The notes below the pieces were generated by a model. The model was given only the letters and a program-made list of their open reading frames with translations, searched no databases and was not told where the DNA came from. 64,000 nucleotides of DNA, taken from contig JAALGY010000001.1 in the NCBI GenBank assembly GCA_032358165.1, positions 1,240,001 through 1,304,000 on the forward strand, in the 5' to 3' direction. Below are positions 47,355-60,954 of this stretch, piece after piece. This stretch comes from Diplosphaera chodatii. Taxonomy: Eukaryota; Chlorophyta; Trebouxiophyceae; Prasiolales; Stichococcaceae. Position 1 is the first letter of the stretch, and each line of letters opens with the position of its first letter. Both the position numbers and the translations under genes were made by a program.

Positions 47355-50300
47355 ATGAAGTTCGGCAAGTACCTGGGCGACAAGGTGGGCATGCCTATTC
47401 AGCACGGGCATGTAGTGCTCAAGCGGCGCAGCTGCAGAAGCTGGTAAGACGGGAGACCTTCACACGATGCCGTGCTGCCCGTCCATGCTTGCAGGCCCGG
47501 CCAGAATGGGCGACCCAATACCTGGACTACAAAAAGGTGAGGCACCCCTGGGCGTCGCCGTCCAGCGCACATGTTTGACCCAGGCTCACGCTGGATTGCT
47601 GGCACAATGGCACAACATCGTCCAGCCCAGGCTGCTTTCACTTCCTTTATCACCGTTGCTTCTGTGGCAATCCAGCTGAAGGACCTGATCAAGGAGAGCG
47701 TGCGGGAGGCGGAGGCGGGCGGCGACATGATCAGCTACTCCCCGCGCACCACCTCCCTGTCAGTCGCGCGTGCCCAGACGCAGCGGGACGCCGCAGAAGA
47801 GCGCTTCTTCAAGGCGCTGGATGGCGAGGTGCGCACCAGGGGTGCTGTGCGGGCTGGCTTCTGTGTTTTGCTAGGGCTTTGGCACGGTCTTGGACCGCTC
47901 AACACGGGTACTTCCTGTGCGAGCAGCAGTATGATGTGTGCATAGAAGGTGCAACCCACAGCTGGCATGAGATCCCTGTGACACATACGAGGGCCTCACC
48001 CAGGAGTTGTGCATGTGTGGTGAGAGACTGCACGTAGAACTGCGACAAGGCGCTGTTCTGGCGGGTGCTGTCTGTAGCAACAGTACAGCTGCCAGAGCAC
48101 GTGCTCAATCGGCTGGTGGCGACTGTTCCCCCGCGCAGGTCAAGAAGGTGGGCGACTTCACGGAGGAGCGCGTCAAGGGGCTGGTGGCCTCGCTGGACCG
48201 CCTGGACGCCAAGGTGAAGGCCGACCGCGGCAGCAACCAGCGGGACGCCCTGGAGCAGGCGAGACCTCTGCCCGCCCTGGCTTGACACATCAACAGGCAG
48301 CCGACGCACCCTACATCTGTTGCTCTGCTCATGTGTGCCGCGACAAAGCTGAAGGCACAGGCTGGCATGCGCAGGAGGCGCACAAGTTGGGCGATGAGTA
48401 CCTGGCGCTGGAGAAGTTTGTCAACCTGAACTACATGGTGCGAGGCTCATACTGGGCGCAAGACTTCGGCAGACCTTCGGCCACATGGTGCCGGTGGATC
48501 ATGCACACCTCTGGCTACACACGTTTCTCCATACTTGTTTGTTGTCATCATTGCAGGGCTTCCACAAGATCCTGAAGAAGCACGACAAGATGCTGCCGCA
48601 TGCGCCGTGCCAACAGTTCTATGTTGCGCACCTGCACCAGCAGAAGTGGGTCCAGGTGGGTTTGCTGGGCCATTGTAGCATCTCGTCCCGTAAGGTCTTC
48701 ATCCTTGTGCCTGCAGACGCTCAGTGCAGGTAGACCACAGAGGGGCTTCTCCCTGAGGCGCTGTTTTGGCAGGAAGAACGGCTGATACCTTGCTTGATGA
48801 AATATGCAGGGCACCAGCAGCAACATCCTGGTCCGGCTGTCCAATGTGTACTCGCAGTTGCGGGGTGACACCAGCGGCATCAAGAACGAGGACTCTGCAC
48901 AGGTGCAGCTGCTGCGCAGCCGGCGGGGAGCAGCCCGCAATGTGTCGTGCATGTCATGAGCATGCTGAGGTGCAGTCTGCCTTCAAGTTGCATCATGCGT
49001 CCAAGTCGCGCCCACGCAACATACCGGTGTGCGATGTGACACCATGCAGGGCTTTGTGCGGTCGACGACAAAGTACTGGGTGCGCACGACGGACGTGTCG
49101 GCCGTCAAGAACCACGTGCTGCAGCACCTGCCCGTCTTCCAGTTCGAGAAGTCGGTAGGCACATGGTTCGCATGGTAGCATGGTGACTGCTTGCTGCAGG
49201 CCACTGCATACAAACATGATTCTGCAGTCGGATGACTCAAAGCTTGCACAGCCCATGTGTTGTCTTTCCTCCTTCCTTTCCCACGCTTGCTTGCTTACGA
49301 CAGGAGGACAAGGACGTGGGCGATGCGCAGCTGATCAACAGCGTGTATCTGGACAACGACTCGCTGGAGCTGTATCACGGGCGGCTGGACAAGAAGCCGG
49401 GGGCGCTGGCGCTGCGCCTGCGCTGGTACGGGCCCCAGCCCAAGATCGTGTTCATGGAGCGCAAGACGCACCGCGAGAGTGAGTGTGCCCATCCCCCCTG
49501 GGGAGCGCTTGCAGTCATCAAAGCCTACTTTGGCTGTATCCAGCCGCTGACATCAGCTGCAGCGCCCCCCTTCTGCCTGCAGTCTCCGCCTGCATGTGCG
49601 CTGCGTTGCCATAAGCAGCTCACTTCAAAAGGTACATCTTCTTCTCCTTATTTAATAACGCAGCATGCAACTCCCCCAGGCTGGAAGGGCGAGGAGAGTG
49701 TGAAGGACCGCGTCGTGCTGGAGGAGCCACAGGTGGTGCCCTTCCTGGAGGGCAGCTACACCCTGGAGCAGGCGCTGGCCAACCTCGACAAGAAGGTCCG
49801 GCGCCGCCTGTTCATGGGCACTGCATGCAGCTCATGCACGTGTCGTGACACCTGGCCTCGCATGACGCCTGGGCACTGCAGCGGCAGGCGCAACCTCCAA
49901 CCCCTTCAGCCGTCTGCATACATGCTCGTGCTAGGTCCTCACACAGGCCATGGAATGCTGCAGGGCAAGAACGAGGCCGAGAAGAAGAAGTTTGCGGAGT
50001 TCTTCTCGGAGGTGCAGAAGGCGGTGGACAGCAAGCAGCTGCGGCCAATGATCCGCACCCAGTACATGCGCACCGCCTTCCAGGTGAACGTTCGTGGGCG
50101 TCTGCGACCTTGCACAAGCTGTGTGCATGCTGCGCATGGTGCCACGGCCAGCTGCAGTGTTGCAAAAGAACTGTCCGTGCACCCCCATTTGAACACCCGA
50201 CGTTGGACGCCTGCAGATTCCCTTCGACTCCACTGTGCGCATCAGCCTGGACACCAACCTGTGCATGATCAAGGAGAACCCGGAGGACGCGCCCTCCTGT

Positions 50301-52739
50301 CACGAGTCTGGTCGGTGAGTCCCTGTGCCCCGTGGCGTGGCAGTACCTGATGCGGAATGCTGACTGCTGACCCTTCTCTGAACCTTCGCCCACCCAGGCG
50401 GCGGCCCTGTCAGCAGGCGGCATGCCCCAGCGGTTGTCTGTCGAATTGGACCAGACTTGCAGCCGGCTCAGTGTGTGGTTTGATCATGCAGGTGGCGGCG
50501 GGACCCGGCGCTGCCGACGCCGCGCACAGAAATCACGCGCTTCCCGCACGCCGTGCTGGAGGTCAAGCTCAGCCTGCACCAGGGCGAGGAGGCGCCCGAC
50601 TGGATCAAGGCACGCTGCACTTGCTGCCGGCCTGCTGCGGTCCTTTCCTCAGCGCTACCCACCCGAGACAGCATGCATGCATGTCCTCTGCACTGCTATG
50701 CACTTATGAGATGCTTCTTGGCTTCATTGTGCCTGAGTATTGCACACAGGAGCTGCTGGAGAGCGGCTACCTCACAGAGGTGCACAAGTTCAGCAAGTTC
50801 ATCCACGGCAGCGCCACGCTGATGCCCGACATGGTCCAGGTGCGGGCATGCATAGGATCGTCAGGCCGCAGAGTGCAACACAGCAACAGTCATGCTGCCA
50901 AAGTGTGGCCTGCCTCAGACCAGCCGACGCACCCAAGATGATGCGATGCTGTCTTGGCATGCAGGCCGTGCCCTACTGGGTGGATGACGAGTCGGTGCGG
51001 CCGTCCATGCTCATGTCGGCGCCCGCGCCAAAGGTGAGGGTCAATATGGCCTCCTCCGTAATACACGCATGGCAGCTCGGGATTCTGCAGCCCCTCCTGC
51101 AGTAGTGTAGCCGATCGTGCGCCGCATGCTGCAACGCCTGCCACACGAACAGCCGCTGCATGACTGAAGTGCGCACTCTGGCGGCCCGCCATTCTCACAC
51201 TATCACTCATGTATGCAGGCGCTGCCGGCGCCGTCGACGACGACGGCCAGCGCGGTGGCGGCGGCGGCGGGCCCCCGCAAGCCGCGCAAGCGCACCGGCA
51301 ACCTCGAGGAGCTGCACCACCCGCTGCTGGGCGACGAGCCCACCCTGCAGCTGCTGCCCGACCGCTCCGAGGTCGCGGGTGCGGCGGCGCCCACCCTTCA
51401 CCGCTGCCGCCCTGCACCCTGCTCTGGCTGCCTACCAGGATTTCACCCATGGATGTCGCCTGCAATGAACATGGTTTTGTGACGGTGCAAGGCTGCTCCA
51501 CGATCACGGGAGTCTGCCTGTACTTGCGCCAGATGTTGTACAGCAACCAATTGCTGTACACAGTGGCTATGACCTGAACTCGCAGTACGAAAGCAGGGTT
51601 TTTGCCGCCCTGCTCCAAAAGTGGCACACGCCACCCTGCTGACAGTGTTGCTGCGCGACATCCCGCAGGCCTGGGGCCGGATGCGGCCAGGAAGCGGGGC
51701 GGCTTCCTCAGCCGCTGGTTCCTGTCCCGCGGGCAGCCAAAGGTGCGGCCCCCTCCACACGCTGCCCGACTGCACCCTCTGACTTGGCTGCAATGCTTCT
51801 CTCATGGATGTTGCCAGCACTGCTGCCCGATCAGCAGCTCTTCTGCAATCAAGATCTGTAGATCTGGAGCATATGCGTCACACAGTCCCTCAATCAGTGA
51901 CCGGTGCATGCACTCCGTCGCAGGCGGAGCAGCGGCTGTCGACGACCATCCCGCAGCGCATCGAGCCCAAGACCTTCTTCGCCAACGAGCGCACCTTCCT
52001 GTCCTGGCTGCACATGGCGGTGACCATCGGCTCCATCGGCGCTGCGCTGCTGGGCTTCTCGGGCACCGCCCCCCCGCGACCCACACGCCCCCAGCACCGT
52101 GAGCCTGCTGACACCTCCCCTGCAGATGCTTCCAGCTGCCACAGCCAGTCGCGCTGCTGGGCCCACCTGACATCGTGCCTTGCACCTCACATGCGTGCAC
52201 TCCTCCGACACCCTGGTGCCTGGCCTGTCATCCCGCCAGTCGATGTTTGGCCCGGGTAGTCAACTGCCACGCTGGCGCCAGATGCCCTAGACGTTTACTG
52301 GTCTGACTGCAGTGAGCTTGCACATACACGAAGCTATGTCGTGAACGCTCAACACACAGCAGGAGCCATTCGCCTGCAGGGTGTGGACGACACGACGGAG
52401 ATCATTGCCATGATCCTGCTGCCGGTCGCGGTGCTGATGTGCGCATACGCACTGGTCGTGTTCCTGTGGCGGAGTGGGCAGATCGCGCGCAAGCAGGTTG
52501 CTCATGCAGCGAGTTGCTTTTCTGTGCTCTACACATGAGGAAGGCTCGCCAGCTGCACGGCAGTAGTGCAGCATTGGTGCCTGACATTGGATGACAAGCC
52601 ATCTGCTCTGTTGCAGGTGGGGTACATCGATGATCAGAATGGCCCGGTGTGTCTGGCAGTTGTCGTAGTGCTCGCCCTATCAGGCATCTTCATCGTCAGC
52701 ACAGTTGACTTCATAAAGCAGTTGCGCAGCCATGCATGA
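47355..52739 (+). CDS. VTC4: SPX-VTC polyphosphate polymerase with DUF202 membrane domain
   Basis: Makes polyphosphate from ATP at the acidocalcisome/vacuole membrane. The SPX domain opens with [28 protein letters not shown] and includes [19 protein letters not shown], the basic surface that senses inositol pyrophosphates. The VTC catalytic tunnel domain has [88 protein letters not shown] and [10 protein letters not shown]. After a Pro/Arg linker, the DUF202-type membrane domain shows [50 protein letters not shown] and [20 protein letters not shown], i.e. three TM helices. The stop is at 52737-52739. It resembles yeast Vtc4 more than Vtc2/3 because basic catalytic residues are retained. About 20 exons. 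Confidence 0.93.
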
Positions 52740-52985: not shown

Positions 52986-53028
52986 TACTGCGGTTTGCAA
53001 ATCGGTTGGCCCCCGTCGGTTCTGAAAA
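52986..53028 (+). repeat. Left outer terminal inverted repeat
   Basis: Identical over 43 nt to the reverse complement of 60667-60709. It begins TACTGCGG and ends CTGAAAA, after which the two arms diverge. Confidence 0.92.
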
Positions 53029-53274
53029 GCCGACCAGAATTTCTGAAAGTGGGCTTCGGAAACCGACGTCGGCCCGCCCAGCTACCGATTGCATTTACAA
53101 ATCGCCAGCGCCCCCTCACCCCTCACGGGGGTCACGAGACTCGAATTTTGCCGCATCGCACGCCAACATTGCGCCACAAACGCCGCCTACATGTTGACGA
53201 GCAGGCTTGCGTGACCTGCGGCGTTGCTGAGTGCCGCGCGCTTGCGCTTGCGTGACACCGCTGCGCGAGTGCAG

Positions 53275-53651
53275 ATGCCACCCATCCTACATCAGCTTGG
53301 ACCTGCTGGCTACAAGGCCGACTTTAAGGAGCTGCTGCTTGAAACTTGGCTGTTTGAGGGTGTCAGCGCAAAGGATGCTGTGCTTCAGTGTCATCACCAG
53401 GCCTCCTGTTGGCCAGCTCGGCCTGCTGCCAGTCGTTCATCCTAACGCTACACAGCCCGCTTGCTTGGCAGCCTGCCTCGCGTGTGCAGCACAACGGCGC
53501 GGGCCCATGCAAACATGAAAACACTACTCATGTGCCATGGCAGGCTCTGCGCCGAGTGCTGAGGGTGTTGCAGGGGAGTGCTGCGAAAAGCCAGAATTTC
53601 ACAGCAGCTTTGCTGAAAGCACGACGCCCGTTACTGACCTTTCCAACTTAA
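53275..53651 (+). CDS. Small ORF in the left arm of the transposon
   Basis: Two segments read as coding if an intron with donor GTGCTT (after SAKDA) and acceptor TGGCAG (53551) is removed: MPPILHQLGPAGYKADFKEL and LLETWLFEGVSAKDA, then ALRRVLRVLQGSAAKSQNFT and AALLKARRPLLTFPT stop. The stop and the last 11 or so codons lie inside the inner 83-nt inverted repeat. It lies in the 530 or so nt present only in the left arm. It could be a captured host-gene fragment or an accessory element gene; no family recognised. Confidence 0.3.
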
Positions 53652-53697
53652 GCAGGGTTTAAGCGATGGCCATCAGTCTACAGACGTTGACGACTGT
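53615..53697 (+). repeat. Left inner inverted repeat (83 nt)
   Basis: GAAAGCACGACGCCCGTTAC through GACGTTGACGACTGT is the exact reverse complement of 60531-60613. Confidence 0.92.
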
Positions 53698-54278
53698 GAG
53701 CCCCTCACTAGCTGCCGCTCTGACCGCGGCGTTCTTGTATGACAGCTTGCGATAGCGATCTGGATGTCATCAGATGCAAGTTCATATTGTTCGTGCCTCG
53801 TCGGAGACATGCGCGCTGCCCACAACCAGTGATTGTGCATGAGTGATTGCCAGTGATGCCAAGGTATGCAAGCAGCGGCCGTGCTGCCAAACATTGTGCC
53901 AACAAGGTGAAACATGCTCATCAATTGCATCAGAGAGGAGGGGCGGAGTCAGGTAGACATGTCACGTTGCCGATGAAAATCTGGTTTACACACATGGTGC
54001 AGCCATCGTAGTCAACACCACAGCAGGTGTTCTCCCTGATGCCCAATTTCAAAGCGGCATCGTTTGCGTGTTTGCGGCCGTCATGCGGGGCTTCGCTATC
54101 TTGGCAGGCTTCGCCTGCTGGCCAGGCTGGGTGCCATGCAGCGTCGTCAATGCAGTCCTCTGCAGATGCACCCAGAAGGCGACTGAAAGCTAACTAGCCA
54201 TGCTTACCATACGCATGCCATGCACCATGCTAAAGCTTGCTGCGACAGCGAGTCGCCAGGGCGACGTTGTGATGGTGG

Positions 54279-57200
54279 TTAAACTGCCCAACTACAGACG
54301 TGCACACATTCTGCATACTGGCAAGCACGACCCACCGGCTTGCGAGGCCTGCCGCTCGCAACGACAGTTGCAAACTGTGGGGGGCAGCTGCCGGTGTCGC
54401 CCTTGCTGCCGCCGTCGCTGCCGCCACCACCAGCCGTGCGCCGCCGCTTGGCTAACGGCGGCTCTCCAGCAATCCTGCTTCCGCTGCCGTCAGTGGCTGA
54501 TGCAATGCTACCTATGAGCGAGCTTGCCTGCTCTGGCTGTCTGTTCTCCTTGCCATTGGCTGCCGAAGCAGGGGATGGTCGTACACGCCTGACAAAGAGC
54601 GGCACGACTCGCCTCTGCCCATCTGTGCGGCGGTCTCCCGGCTGCGCTGGTCGCCGCCGGAACTGGAAGCGGGGAGTCGCCTGCTGCAGGTTGTCAGCTA
54701 TCTGCCGCAGCGCTGTCAGCTGGTCGCTGATCGCCTCATCCGGCAGCCCATGGTTGGCCAACGACTGCAGCTGTGCACCAAGCCGCACCAGCTCCTTGGC
54801 TGGCTCCGAGCGCACTGTGGCATGCTGCCGCGCCGCTGCAGTGCTGGTGCAGCCCTGCACGCTGCCAGCCGTAGCATCGACCACCAGCAGTGGCTCGAGG
54901 TGCTGCAGCGGCTTGACCTGCTGTGGCAACCGGCGGCTCACTGAGATGGGGTTGCGCAAGCCGCTGCCACTGCTGCCCGTCGCAGTTACCGCCAGCCCAT
55001 GCGGCAGCGCCAAGATCTGCTGGTACTGTGCGGCCGCCAGCAAGTGGCAGCACACCTGATGCTCTGCCCAGTCTGGGCAGCTGCAAAAGCTGCTGTGCAC
55101 ATTCAGCTGGTAGGTGATGGCGGCTGCGGGAACGAGTGCTGGGCAGTGCCACATGCCTGCCTTTGCGTCCACAGGCTGCAGAAGCTTCTCTATCACGATG
55201 GTTTGTGCAGCTGCCATCCGCATCGCTGCCGTGAAGCTGACCCGCTGTGCTGCCGCCTCAAGGTGTTTGCAGACTGCGCCGCTACGCTGTCGATCTGGGC
55301 ACTCGCAGCTGCAATCGCCCAACATGCAGCTGTACACAACGCCCGGCTTCGTCTGGCTGTTCACGAGCACCGCCCCCAGCTCAGGGATTGTTACCTGCGC
55401 CCAGTAGAGACACATAGGAGTAAGAACAACATAAAACCGTATGGTAATTTGGTCTTGTAGTTATACTTCAAGTGAACAACAGGACGCTACATTGTGGCTG
55501 CTGTCTAGGCCTGCGTATTAGAAGCTGGTCCCTGACCTGCACGGAGCCGCTGTCGACGAGGTACTTGATGTCGAACTGGTGCTTGGCATGCGCGGCTTCA
55601 TACCTCCCCGCTGCCACACCAGCAACCAGCTTGCGCCGCTGTACCACCATGTCCGCCGCGATCTCATTGAGCAACAGCCTGAGGAAGTCGACCAGCTGCA
55701 CGCCTTTCCGTCCATCCATCCACGTGTACTTGAGGACGCCAAAGCCGCGCTCCGCAAAGTTGTTGGTGTCGGTGCGCAAGTGGCTGACTGCTGATCTGCC
55801 GAAGGCTGCCCAGTGCTGCGCAAGCGTCGCCCAGTATGTCCTGTACTGTTGCACCACCGATGGGAAGCGGCTGACCAGGTCGGCCTCAAACTGCTTGCTG
55901 TGGTGCCAAAAGCTGCGCTCATCAGCCAGGCGTAGCAATGCCTGCACCCGCCGGATGATGCTGGTGCGGTCGGCCGCAGCTTTGACGCCGCTGGCTGCTG
56001 ACTTCAGGAACCGGTCCCACTCTTGTAAGACGTGGAACCAGCATAGCAGATACTGGCGCTGGAGCTGGTTGCATGCGCTCATCTCCGCTTTGGACTTGTC
56101 GATCATGAAGCGCTGCATCCTGAATGTGGGAAGGCATGGCGGTGGCGGCGGGGGCTGCTGCTGCTGCTGCTGCTGCTGGGCTGACTGCTGACTTGGCTCT
56201 TGCAACAGCGGCTGTGGCTGCAGCCGAGGCTCGACCAATGATGGCAGCGGCTGTAGCTCTGCAGGGCTCAGCTGCACTGATTGCTCCTGCTGCACGGCAG
56301 CCTCTCTTCCTTTCGGTGGCACCGTGCCCGTGGCAAATTGCGTCTCAGGCACAGATGGCAGTGGCAGCGCTGCAGACACCTGTGAAACAGCCCACAGTCC
56401 AGGGTCAGGGGCTGACAAGAGCGGGATGTCTTGCAGTCCTGATGCCTAGCAATATCATAAGCTACACTCACAGTCCAACACACGTCAGTTGCAGATGTTT
56501 ACCTGCGGTGTCACAGCCAGCACTGGAGAAGGCTGTTGTGGTGGCGACACCGGCAGCAGCTGCTGCAGGGCTTCTGCTTGCGGCGTCACACACCCCTGCT
56601 GCAGCATGTCCCATGCAGGATGCGCTGCCGCCGGCGGCAGTTGTGTCTCGGGCGTCTGCAGTGCCAACAGTTCATATAGTTAGCACTCAAAGGACCGTTG
56701 CTCGAGTCTCTCTGGTTTGAACTCTGCTCAGCAACCAGGTTCACCTGAGGCACTACTCCTGGCGAAGTCGCCAGCGGCTGCAGCACTGAAGGCGGTGTCC
56801 GATGCTGCCGCAGAGCAGCCTCGAGTTGCGAGGACACAGGCGGCTGCCGCAGGGGACCCGCCGGATGCCCCTGGATCACCACTGGCGGCAAGCGTGGCGG
56901 TGGCGGCAGCGCCACCAACGCCTACACGAGGTACAATGCCACGTTTGCACACTCTCTACGATGACACAGTTATCATGGCCTCTTGGCTTGTCGACTCCCA
57001 CCTGTCAAAATACAGCTCATGCCAACGCTTTCAAAGTGCTGTTGTTGTTCATTGCACATAGAACCATTGTCTATTACTGTGCTTCAATCACCTGCGGAGT
57101 CTTGGGTACGGCTGATGGCTGCTCGATGACATGCGCGTGTGCCGGCTGCGGGGTCAGCTGGGATGAGTGCGTGACATGGCCCAACACTACGTCCGCCTGC

Positions 57201-58378
57201 TGTCCGCCAATCCGCCCTGCGTAACACACATTCGATGCGACTGCTGAGAACCGGAATGCTGTCCTATAGCCGAAAGCCAGTAAGTATATACGTGACAGCA
57301 GCTGCAACTGCATAGCAGCCGTTGTGCACAGTTATGACCCAGGCAGGAGGTTGAAAGGGTACCTGTGTGGATGTCCTGGTTGACGGCGCGCTCCACCACC
57401 TGAATGAATGTCTTCAGCTCTGCTGTGCCTTCACTATCGCTGATCATCCATGCAGCCGCGTCGGCCGACATGAAGTCGTTGACGACGAAGATGGCTGTGA
57501 GCATGTATCCATACTTGCAGATGCCACCTGCCAACACAATGCATGTCAACATGAACGATGGTATGTGTCAGAAGTTCCAAATCACAGACGCCTACATATA
57601 TGCATGCGCCATCATACACAGGTTGTCAGAAACATCACCGACAGGCATCTGACATGACGAGTAGACGAGTTGACACCTGTTGCATCCATGCACACCAACT
57701 CCCTCCCAAAAGCCTGGAGCAGGGCGCGCTGGAAGGGTGTGCAGACGACGATGACCAGCCGCTGCTTGATGACGCCGCCGTCGCTGAGCTGTGGCTGGTA
57801 TAGCAGCACGCTGTCGTCGCCTGCCGCCTCCAAGGCGCCAAGCATTGCTTCCACTGCAGTCAGATCTGAGCCGGCGATGCGCTGGCTGTTGATGACGCGC
57901 TTCTGAATGCTGCGACATTCAGAGGCACGCTGTGATGCCCACCAACGCGAAGACTGGAAGCTGGCATCATATGCTGCTTTGTCGCCGCCAAGGGCTTGCG
58001 ACAAAAGCTGATCGCTTTCCTTGTCCAGCAGACGCAGGACGCGGCGCGGCGGCAGCCCCAGGCCGAACAGTTCGACAGCCCGCTGCTCCAGGCGCCGGTC
58101 GACACGCAGCTGCCGCTGATCCTCAGGGCTGCCAGGCACGTGAAACTGATGCGGCGCCGTGACAACGAGATCAACAACGCCAGCACGGCTGCGGTCCACA
58201 ATTACTGCCAGCTGAAATGGACAGCCGCACTTCACGCTAGAGATGCTCTGTTTGTGACCCGGCTGCCGGCTGGGTTTGGTGCTGCGGCCTCGGCGGCAGC
58301 CGAACACGGCAGCCACACGGCGCTGGCGGGCATGCTTTGTGCTCGTGCCGGTGCTGTGCTCCTGCTGAGCAAGGCTTG

Positions 58379-58410
<32 letters not shown>

Positions 58411-60412
58411 AGCGGGGGCTGCTTCTGCTGCTGCTCTGACAGCGGCGGTGCAGGCGGGGCCAGCTGCTGTGGGGAGGACGTATCCTCGTCGGCTGCGCCT
58501 GTTGTCAAGGTGAATTGTGATAGCAATCAGAATTACGCTCACACCATACAGGATGCTCTAGACGCTTGTCACGGTGCTGCTGGTCGAAGGTAGCATAAGC
58601 ACCAATGCACTTGATATCATGACGTCATATGTTGGCATTGACAGCATAGCATCTCCACACCTTGGCAGAAGGCCTCGTACTCACTACGCGAGTGAGGCTT
58701 GAGCAGAATCAGGTCGACGCCTTGGCTGTTGGCATAGCTTGTGAGGCGGTCTGGCAGCTCTCGTAGTGGCACGTTGGTGGCCACGACCTGGATAGCATTC
58801 CGCAGAGAAAACGCTGTTGATATGCTCGAGTGTCACTGGGTGATGGGTAACTGGAGTTCTGCCAGTGACAAGATCGAAGCTGTCAAGGCTTGCGAACCTT
58901 GGCGAGTGTGATAATGAACATTACCTGAGGGCCAGCACAATCTGAAGGGGTTGCTGAAGGCCCAGCCCGCTGGAACAACGCTGTTTGCGGCAAGTACTCG
59001 ACCTGCCCTTCGGACAGCTCCACGTGCCACCAAGGTCCCGTCTGCCGCAACGCCACGCCGCATCTGCCGGCATGTGTGCCGCTCGCCACCAACACCGGCA
59101 CATGTGCGCAGGCGCCCACGAGCTGCTGCCATTGACTGCTGGCTGTTTCGACGACCGCCCTGAGGTTGTGCGTGCCTGTTGAACGCTGCCGCTGGCCAGC
59201 TTTGCCCTCCCATGCCACCCCAAATCCGGCGGGCACCGCGGCTGTGATGGTGCCGAAGCTGGATGTTTTGATGTGCTGCACACGGCTGCCGACCTTGAGC
59301 GCCTGCTGGTCCAGCAGTTGCACCAGGCTTGCAGCGGCTGTCCGTGCGGCTGCCAGCCGCTGCGCATCGCTGGCTGCAGGGTCGCCCAGTGCCAGGTGTA
59401 GCTTGGCATCCGCTGCAGCAGGCTCATCAGCATCGTCGCTGTCTGAAGCTGACAGGTCCTCTGCGATGCATTGTTGAGACGCCGTGGGCTGAGGCTGCTC
59501 CTGCAATGGTTGCACCGCGGGTGCATGCCCTGCCGTCCGCATGGCAGGCCCCCATTCCTGCTTCCAGCAGCGCTGCAGGCGGGGAAGAATGCTGCTCTGC
59601 CACTGCCGCTGCCCACCACCAGCCCAGTCCACGTGGTGTACGACAGGGGCCTGGTCAGCGAACCAGATGAACACCTTGGCGTGCGGGTTCCGGAACAGCG
59701 GGAGGTTGTGGCTGCCTATCACCGCCAGCTGTGTCAGCACCTGAGCCTCGATGTGCTGCGGCAGCTGCTGGAAGTCAGCTGGCTGACGACTGTGCGGGCA
59801 TTTGATCTCCAGCAGGTGCACCGATGGACCATGGCCTGGCACCGTGACTGAAACGAGGGCATCTGGGGACGCACCCAGCCAATCCTCTGCAGCATGCAGC
59901 CACAGTCCCTCTGTGTGCAGTGTGACGCTGCTGCCCGTTGGAAGCGTACCCAGCAAATGCTGCCTGTAAGCCTCAGCTGCAAGCGGCTCGCTGGCAATGC
60001 CATGCTGCATTGCCGCTGTGGGTATGCTTCCGCCGGCAAGCTTGGCTGCAAGCCTGGCCTGCCGCTTCTGCAGACCGTCGCTGGCTGGGCTGCAGACTAC
60101 AGCTGAATCTGACGCAGTCAGGCGGTACTTCCTGGCCTGGTGCCATGCTGCACTGCCCTGCAGTAAGCGCCGGTACTCCTCGTAGCGCTGCGGCAGGCAC
60201 CCCAGTGGGCTCGCCTGCATGCAACAGCAGATTGCATTTCGTTGAACATGATACTCGTATACCTGACCGCATCGCATCCTTTCAGGCCACCGGCGGGCAA
60301 ACCGTTTCTTACCCGCGGGATCACACCGGAAGAAGTGCTGCAGTGGGCACCTGCTGGTGGACTTCGGCGTTCGACTGGTCAGGCGACTGCACTTGACGGC
60401 TGATATCAGCAA
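54279..60412 (-). CDS. YqaJ nuclease - MULE transposase fusion protein
   Basis: Ten exons (60412-60263, 60214-58925, 58787-58661, 58498-57677, 57527-57363, 57216-57092, 56921-56745, 56655-56503, 56379-55537, 55394-54279) join in phase to 1,655 aa. In order: (1) YqaJ/lambda-exonuclease-like PD-(D/E)XK nuclease, RRLLQGSAAWHQARKYRLTA, GASPDALV, LLEIKCPHS; (2) two SH3/KOW-like segments, KVGSRVQHIKTSSFGTI and PVLVASGTHAGRCGVAL; (3) FAR1/WRKY-like zinc finger, KCGCPFQLAV...APHQFHVPG; (4) MULE DDE core, ELVCMDATGG|ICKYGYMLTA, AWMISDSEGTAELKTFIQ, RFMIDKSKAEMSACNQL, LLCWFHVLQEWDRF and NNFAERGFGVLKYTW, interrupted by Pro/Gln-rich exons; (5) two SWIM fingers, CECPDRQRSGAVCKH and CSCPDWAEHQVCCH; (6) a basic nuclear signal, AKRRR. 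The transposase exons have no in-frame ATG of their own near their start and an upstream TGA, which supports fusion. An unseen upstream start exon is possible. Confidence 0.82.
58381..58410. repeat. (CTG/CAG)10 microsatellite
   Basis: Ten perfect TGC units in the plus strand, encoding a Gln run in the transposase. A similar but shorter CTG run at about 56155-56178 encodes another Gln run. Confidence 0.85.
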
Positions 60413-60530
60413 CCGTCCCCATGCCGGGTGCTAAGACCGCACCAAGTTGGCTGCAGACTGCATTGGATGTGCACATGTGCACTTGTGCAGAGCTGTGTGC
60501 TTGAAAATCGTCTAAGTGCTTCACAGGTTT

Positions 60531-60613
60531 ACAGTCGTCAACGTCTGTAGACTGATGGCCATCGCTTAAACCCTGCTTAAGTTGGAAAGGTCAGTAACGG
60601 GCGTCGTGCTTTC
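60531..60613 (-). repeat. Right inner inverted repeat (83 nt)
   Basis: Exact reverse complement of 53615-53697. Here only 53 nt separate it from the outer repeat, against 586 nt in the left arm. Confidence 0.92.
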
Positions 60614-60666
60614 TGCAACCGACATCGGCCCTTTCGATTACCGATCAAAACTTCTGAAAATCAGCG

Positions 60667-60709
60667 TTTTCAGAACCGACGGGGGCCAACCGATTTGCAA
60701 ACCGCAGTA
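60667..60709 (-). repeat. Right outer terminal inverted repeat
   Basis: Exact reverse complement of 52986-53028, ending CCGCAGTA. Confidence 0.92.
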
Positions 60710-60954
60710 TATCATCACACTCAACCTGCGAAAAACTATTAGCATATCTGATCCAGACAAATCAGGCAGCAGCCACAGCATGTGGCAAGAATGACCCTAC
60801 CAGACCAGTGTTGTTAAAGGAGACAGTCAAGCCTATTGTCCGACTACTATGCTATCATCAGTTCTGCTATGCCGTACTGCCCATGGCGGCATGATACTAT
60901 ACCAAGCAAGAATGCCCATTGACGCATGCTGTCCTGCCATAGGGCAGTTGCCCT

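Follow-up and report, generated by a model that had tools for sequence, protein, structure and literature searches.

The 64,000-nucleotide stretch of Diplosphaera chodatii DNA analysed here (contig JAALGY010000001.1, positions 1,240,001 to 1,304,000; hereafter the window) contains a complete transposon of the Mutator-like element (MULE) type, with long terminal inverted repeats and one long gene on the minus strand. The first exon of this gene encodes a YqaJ-type nuclease followed by KOW-like modules, and the remaining exons encode a DDE transposase. We propose that the gene is spliced into a YqaJ–transposase fusion, and that its nuclease processes the DNA ends produced by transposition, a reading to which we assign a probability of about 0.5. 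The element is real and mobile, and its product is probably fused.

The transposon and its gene

The limits of the transposon are given by a second copy in the same genome (C13:352403-359397), whose alignment with the window copy breaks at GCACGACGCCCGTTACTGACC on both sides; 64 substitutions separate the two copies. An inverted-repeat search returned arms of 93 nt, 97% complementary, which consist of the 84-bp terminal repeats and the nearly palindromic 9 bp that flank them. The C13 copy lies in a 9/9 target site duplication, CCTGCAAAT, and the two 9-mers of the window copy agree with each other at 7/9 positions. Both flanks of the window copy join an uninterrupted sequence at C26 at TTTCGGAAA. 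Each window 9-mer differs from this empty site at two positions, one of which (A for G) is common to both, and an original target TTTCAGAAA, one base from the C26 site, with one later change in each duplicate accounts for the pair TTGCAGAAA/TTTCAGCAA. None of the inverted repeats, target duplications, short relatives or nesting inside another repeat had been seen in the first-pass annotation of this DNA.

The host of the nested transposon is a separate inverted-repeat element of about 0.7 kb, whose copy at C26 provides the empty site. The outer inverted repeats of 51 nt (52978/60717) were ruled out as transposon ends, since they are part of this short element. The homologous locus L126 (C51:748801-754800) carries neither the short element nor the transposon, with 81-83% identity in the flanks adjacent to the site. 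L126 is 75-83% identical to both insertion flanks, a likeness which suggests that diverged duplicate regions are present in the assembly.

Short non-autonomous relatives of the transposon were also found. In the 415-bp elements, one terminus is identical to that of the transposon and the other differs in its last 8 bp; six of them (L011, L012, L013, L015, L019 and L021) have GCTTTTGC in place of GCACGACG at this end, yet 9-bp duplications are present. At the eight two-ended short relatives the duplications agree at 9/9 positions in five, at 8/9 in one, and at 4/9 and 1/9 in two diverged ones; two further loci have a single end and one has no such end. The terminal-repeat pattern, with up to 3 mismatches, gave 18 matches in the genome as against 6 for the reversed control; sequences were retrieved for all but five of these matches, each of the five having 3 mismatches.

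The gene extends from an ATG at 60277 to the stop at 54279, with nine exons, eight GT...AG introns of 89-170 nt and 1,626 codons without an internal stop. An alternative in-frame ATG at 60220 would give 1,607 aa, and three donors of exon 2 (58687, 58684 and 58660) are in frame, so that versions of 1,617 and 1,618 aa are equally open. The GC content of the introns is 0.45-0.51, while 8 of the 10 exon segments exceed 0.6, and in every intron at least two frames are interrupted by stops. The C13 copy keeps GT and AG at both sides of the eight introns. Because this copy has three insertions or deletions (indels) at or upstream of 60343, one of them a 1-bp insertion at 60343, and its nuclease exon (1,353 nt) is free of them, the start was placed at 60277 and the upstream sequence treated as untranslated. 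TGTAA is a polyadenylation signal in green algae; it occurs once downstream of the gene and not within it, the number expected across the whole element being only 3.4.

The first-pass annotation had proposed a protein of 1,655 aa, with nine phase-consistent introns and a gene end at 60412. The junctions from 60277 to 54279 are indeed GT...AG and in phase in one open frame, but the favoured model has eight introns, and there is no ATG at 60412, the nearest upstream one being at 60422. A first exon beginning at 60422 is open and gives nine-intron versions of 1,628-1,637 aa by donor choice, but is disfavoured by the C13 indels. Two other claims were borne out: the transposase part lacks a start codon of its own, as exon 2 contains no ATG ahead of the donor, and this exon is preceded by an in-frame TGA at 58835-58833.

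Between the window and C13 copies, the coding substitutions comprise 17 silent and 26 replacement changes (pN/pS 0.50, p 0.03, uncorrected). The ratio is 0.38 in the transposase exons (p 0.03, uncorrected) and 0.95 in the linker.

Features of the transposon and its gene in the window
Feature	Position	Strand	Remark
MULE-type DNA transposon, complete, 6,991 bp	53619..60609	- (gene strand)	alignment with C13 copy stops exactly at both ends
5' terminal inverted repeat, 84 bp, starts GCACGACGCCCGTTACTGACC	60526..60609	-	
3' terminal inverted repeat, 84 bp	53619..53702	+	
9-bp target site duplication, copy 1, minus strand TTGCAGAAA	60610..60618	.	empty site C26 = TTTCGGAAA
9-bp target site duplication, copy 2, minus strand TTTCAGCAA	53610..53618	.	
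Short inverted-repeat element, interrupted by the transposon	52986..60710	.	uninterrupted copy C26:2722154-2722876
Exon 1, YqaJ nuclease (Pfam match aa 45-188) and two KOW-like modules	58925..60277	-	in-frame ATGs 60277, 60220
Nuclease active-site residues E97, D139, E157, K159	59801..59989	-	
Intron 1, nuclease/transposase junction	58788..58924	-	if retained, nuclease stop after 13 more codons
Exon 2, transposase part begins, no ATG	58661..58787	-	other in-frame donors 58684, 58687
Exon 3, zinc-finger-like C-x-C...H-x2-H segment and first catalytic Asp (D765)	57677..58498	-	
Exon 4, segment past first Asp	57363..57527	-	1-bp deletion in second copy
Exon 5, Pro/Gln-rich linker	57092..57216	-	
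Exon 6, Pro/Gln-rich linker	56745..56921	-	
Exon 7, Pro/Gln-rich linker	56503..56655	-	
Exon 8, remaining linker, second Asp (D1068), C-x2-H (C1087, H1090), catalytic Glu (E1184)	55537..56379	-	Glu position presumed
Exon 9, two SWIM zinc fingers, C-terminus, stop	54279..55394	-	
TGTAA, candidate polyadenylation signal, 289 nt past stop	53986..53990	-	sole one downstream of start codon in element

Outside the transposon, the neighbouring gene on the plus strand (49220-52256) encodes a VTC domain (84 bits) followed at some distance by DUF202 (41 bits); it is likely a polyphosphate polymerase. Elsewhere in the genome, 56 matches to chlorophyll-binding proteins, together with the introns, indicate a photosynthetic eukaryote, probably an alga.

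The two halves of the predicted protein

The YqaJ nuclease named in the first-pass annotation is confirmed by a profile match of the spliced protein to PF09588, of the lambda exonuclease fold, with an E-value of 8e-16. The catalytic E, D and ExK residues of the YqaJ/lambda exonuclease family are present, and the ExK motif is kept in the window copy, in its C13 twin, where the codons are unchanged, and in the relative P0001; the alignment column of E157 holds E in 14 of 16 rows. The KOW-like modules, which had been placed between nuclease and transposase, receive some support from fold comparison. The search of the genome gave no other YqaJ match, and among viral contigs searched with the window nuclease, 0 of 1 stretches encoded a relative. 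In the wider search for relatives, 108 of 149 stretches encoded one; 80 loci were kept and 23 proteins extracted, of which 10, picked by eye to thin near-duplicates, entered the alignment and tree. The tree does not include P0001, since the N-terminal half of this protein is not in frame. In this small tree, the YqaJ domain of the window and the other proteins not from viral contigs split from ten viral-contig sequences with 98/98 support. Three relatives from elsewhere (P0001-P0003) have YqaJ followed by a similar stretch.

The transposase half has the motifs D765, D1068, C1087-x2-H1090 and E1184 and, C-terminal to these, two SWIM fingers. Its MULE identity, also claimed in the first pass, is supported by the public protein P0006, which Pfam calls a MULE at 32 bits (cut-off 27.6). 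P0006 is 50% identical to exon 8 over 106 aa and 35% identical to exon 3 over 89 aa, and both Asp residues and the C-x2-H align with it; it ends before the position of E1184, which we take to be the catalytic Glu from its motif. Since P0006 matches both exons, one open reading frame (ORF) joins there what is split in the window, and the comparison marks the Pro/Gln-rich sequence of 237 aa that separates the two Asp residues as an insertion in the window protein. In this half, the sole match of the spliced protein was to ZSWIM1-3 RNaseH-like, at E 0.006 and below the cut-off. Membership in the MULEs is based on P0006, on the motifs and on two features of the element itself, its long inverted ends and its 9-bp duplication. 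Apart from the two copies, a genome search with the transposase returned a single weak match (C10, E 0.037, 74 aa); viral contigs searched with it gave 0 relatives of 58. Searches of prokaryote genome contigs gave no relative (0 of 5 and 0 of 123 stretches).

The linker exons 5 to 7 are favoured as real exons because of the steps in GC content between exon and intron. Alternatively, they may be skipped together as one long intron, which would shorten the linker: with exon 4 whole, in-frame joins to the segment of the second Asp are available at the acceptors 56198 and 56180 and would keep a short piece of the Pro/Gln sequence, and the remaining in-frame joins to this segment shorten exon 4 or take a donor beyond it. 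Each of the three linker exons has ...PQ at its donor end (KTPQ, VVPQ and VTPQ), as if the linker had grown by exon duplication.

One product or two

A single spliced protein is predicted, and is more likely than two products, although a free form of the nuclease is possible. It is favoured by the phase of the junctions, the composition of the introns, the absence of a start in exon 2, and the presence of one TGTAA past the gene and none inside. The nuclease–transposase fusion of the first-pass annotation accordingly stands as one open, in-phase gene within one transposon, its physical fusion being a prediction from the sequence.

The alternative that survives best, possible though rather unlikely, is an arrangement of two products. 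The nuclease would be a free YqaJ-KOW protein ending in intron 1, produced either when this intron is retained or from a gene of its own, and the transposase would be made either independently or exclusively within the spliced fusion. Such an arrangement resembles the ISL2EU transposons, which carry YqaJ and transposase as two ORFs according to PMC4482050 and PMC9179366. If intron 1 were retained, the nuclease would end after VMFIITLAKVRKP and a stop, and this tail resembles that of P0002, a protein about a third identical overall, which ends ...VMFHIVLPLL at the same place where the window read-through has VMFIITLAKV (5/10 identical). The probability of five identities by chance is 0.014 with GTAATG fixed and 0.0014 with only GT fixed, in a test chosen post hoc. 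The likeness fits either a conserved splice donor combined with chance, or a real free-nuclease product. On the other side, the transposase exon lacks a start codon and is separated from the read-through stop by only 95 nt, and within intron 1 every frame contains one stop and TGTAA is absent.

Besides the P0002 tail, several observations weigh against the favoured reading. The full-length protein search found no fused relative among 7,988 candidates, a list that the Pro/Gln stretches may have crowded. A direct six-frame search of the genome with PF10551 gave nothing at E<=0.1, which we put down to the introns and the linker. The C13 copy is not intact, as a 1-bp deletion shifts the frame of exon 4, the only exon affected. 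The nuclease exon alone has a pN/pS of 0.66, which is not significant (p 0.50, uncorrected). Finally, P0002 and P0003, otherwise conserved, have Q or R at the Glu of ExK, with the loss of one catalytic acid; they are possibly catalytically silent forms, perhaps capable of binding only.

Much of the domain and of the sequence flanking it is preserved in these two proteins, and KOW-like modules suggest binding, so the YqaJ-KOW half could be fused and yet act as a module binding DNA ends or targets instead of as a nuclease. Given that ExK is kept in the window copy, its C13 twin and P0001, we regard this as improbable. Passive cargo, that is, a captured host or viral gene in the Pack-MULE style with a coincidental fusion frame, is very improbable: MULEs do capture genes and selection on the nuclease exon alone is not significant, but the genome has no other YqaJ match, three relatives carry the domain with a similar stretch behind it, and the tree sets the window YqaJ apart from the viral-contig sequences.

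Proposed mechanism and known systems

The first-pass annotation had suggested transposition with built-in end processing or homology-driven repair. For the favoured fusion, we propose that the transposase half binds the inverted ends, excises the element and inserts it with a 9-bp stagger; cut-and-paste of this kind follows from the family and the duplications. Exonucleases of the lambda type act on breaks by degrading the 5' strands. With the transposase keeping it at the cut, the fused nuclease would likewise resect the 5' strands at the donor break. The 3' strands laid bare in this way would direct repair to a sister copy or sister chromatid, and the element would thereby be restored at the donor site. 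Being fused, the nuclease would be restricted to the element's own breaks. In a bolder version, which we consider doubtful, the fusion forces templated, donor-restoring repair of its own break, retention of intron 1 frees the nuclease, and one splice choice balances transposition against repair. Copy gain of cut-and-paste elements depends on donor-gap repair; if our proposal is true, a transposase with a resection nuclease makes donor repair part of transposition itself, and the element would likely influence the repair of the broken DNA it leaves behind. The ends of the element are defined and its frame is intact, and its short relatives offer possible substrates for tests.

The MULE/MuDR family is characterized by long inverted ends, 9-bp duplications, a D-D-E core with C-x2-H, and SWIM zinc fingers, all of which the window element shares. 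It adds the N-terminal YqaJ-KOW extension and, in our model, the 237-aa linker. Compared with lambda exonuclease, LHK-Exo and the YqaJ proteins of viral contigs, its nuclease belongs to a eukaryotic clade and is encoded by a spliced gene, with a predicted transposase fusion.

The first-pass annotation knew of no described element with exactly this architecture, and no YqaJ–MULE fusion was found among the titles and abstract openings of the literature searched; the pairing of YqaJ with a DDE transposase, however, is known from ISL2EU. As described in PMC4482050 and PMC9179366, ISL2EU elements are eukaryotic DNA transposons of the PHIS superfamily, with families found in animals, which encode a DDE transposase and a YqaJ exonuclease; one of the two papers states that it is unknown what the superfamily's additional ORFs do. 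The YqaJ of ISL2EU is a separate ORF, whereas the window element has one in-phase gene by prediction, from which a retained intron 1 would give a separate nuclease. The ISL2EU transposase is of the PHIS type with HTH/THAP, its target duplications are AT and its terminal inverted repeats usually start with GG, while the window element has a MULE-type transposase and 9-bp duplications instead of AT. Relative to ISL2EU, the distinguishing feature would be the predicted union of YqaJ and a MULE transposase in one gene.
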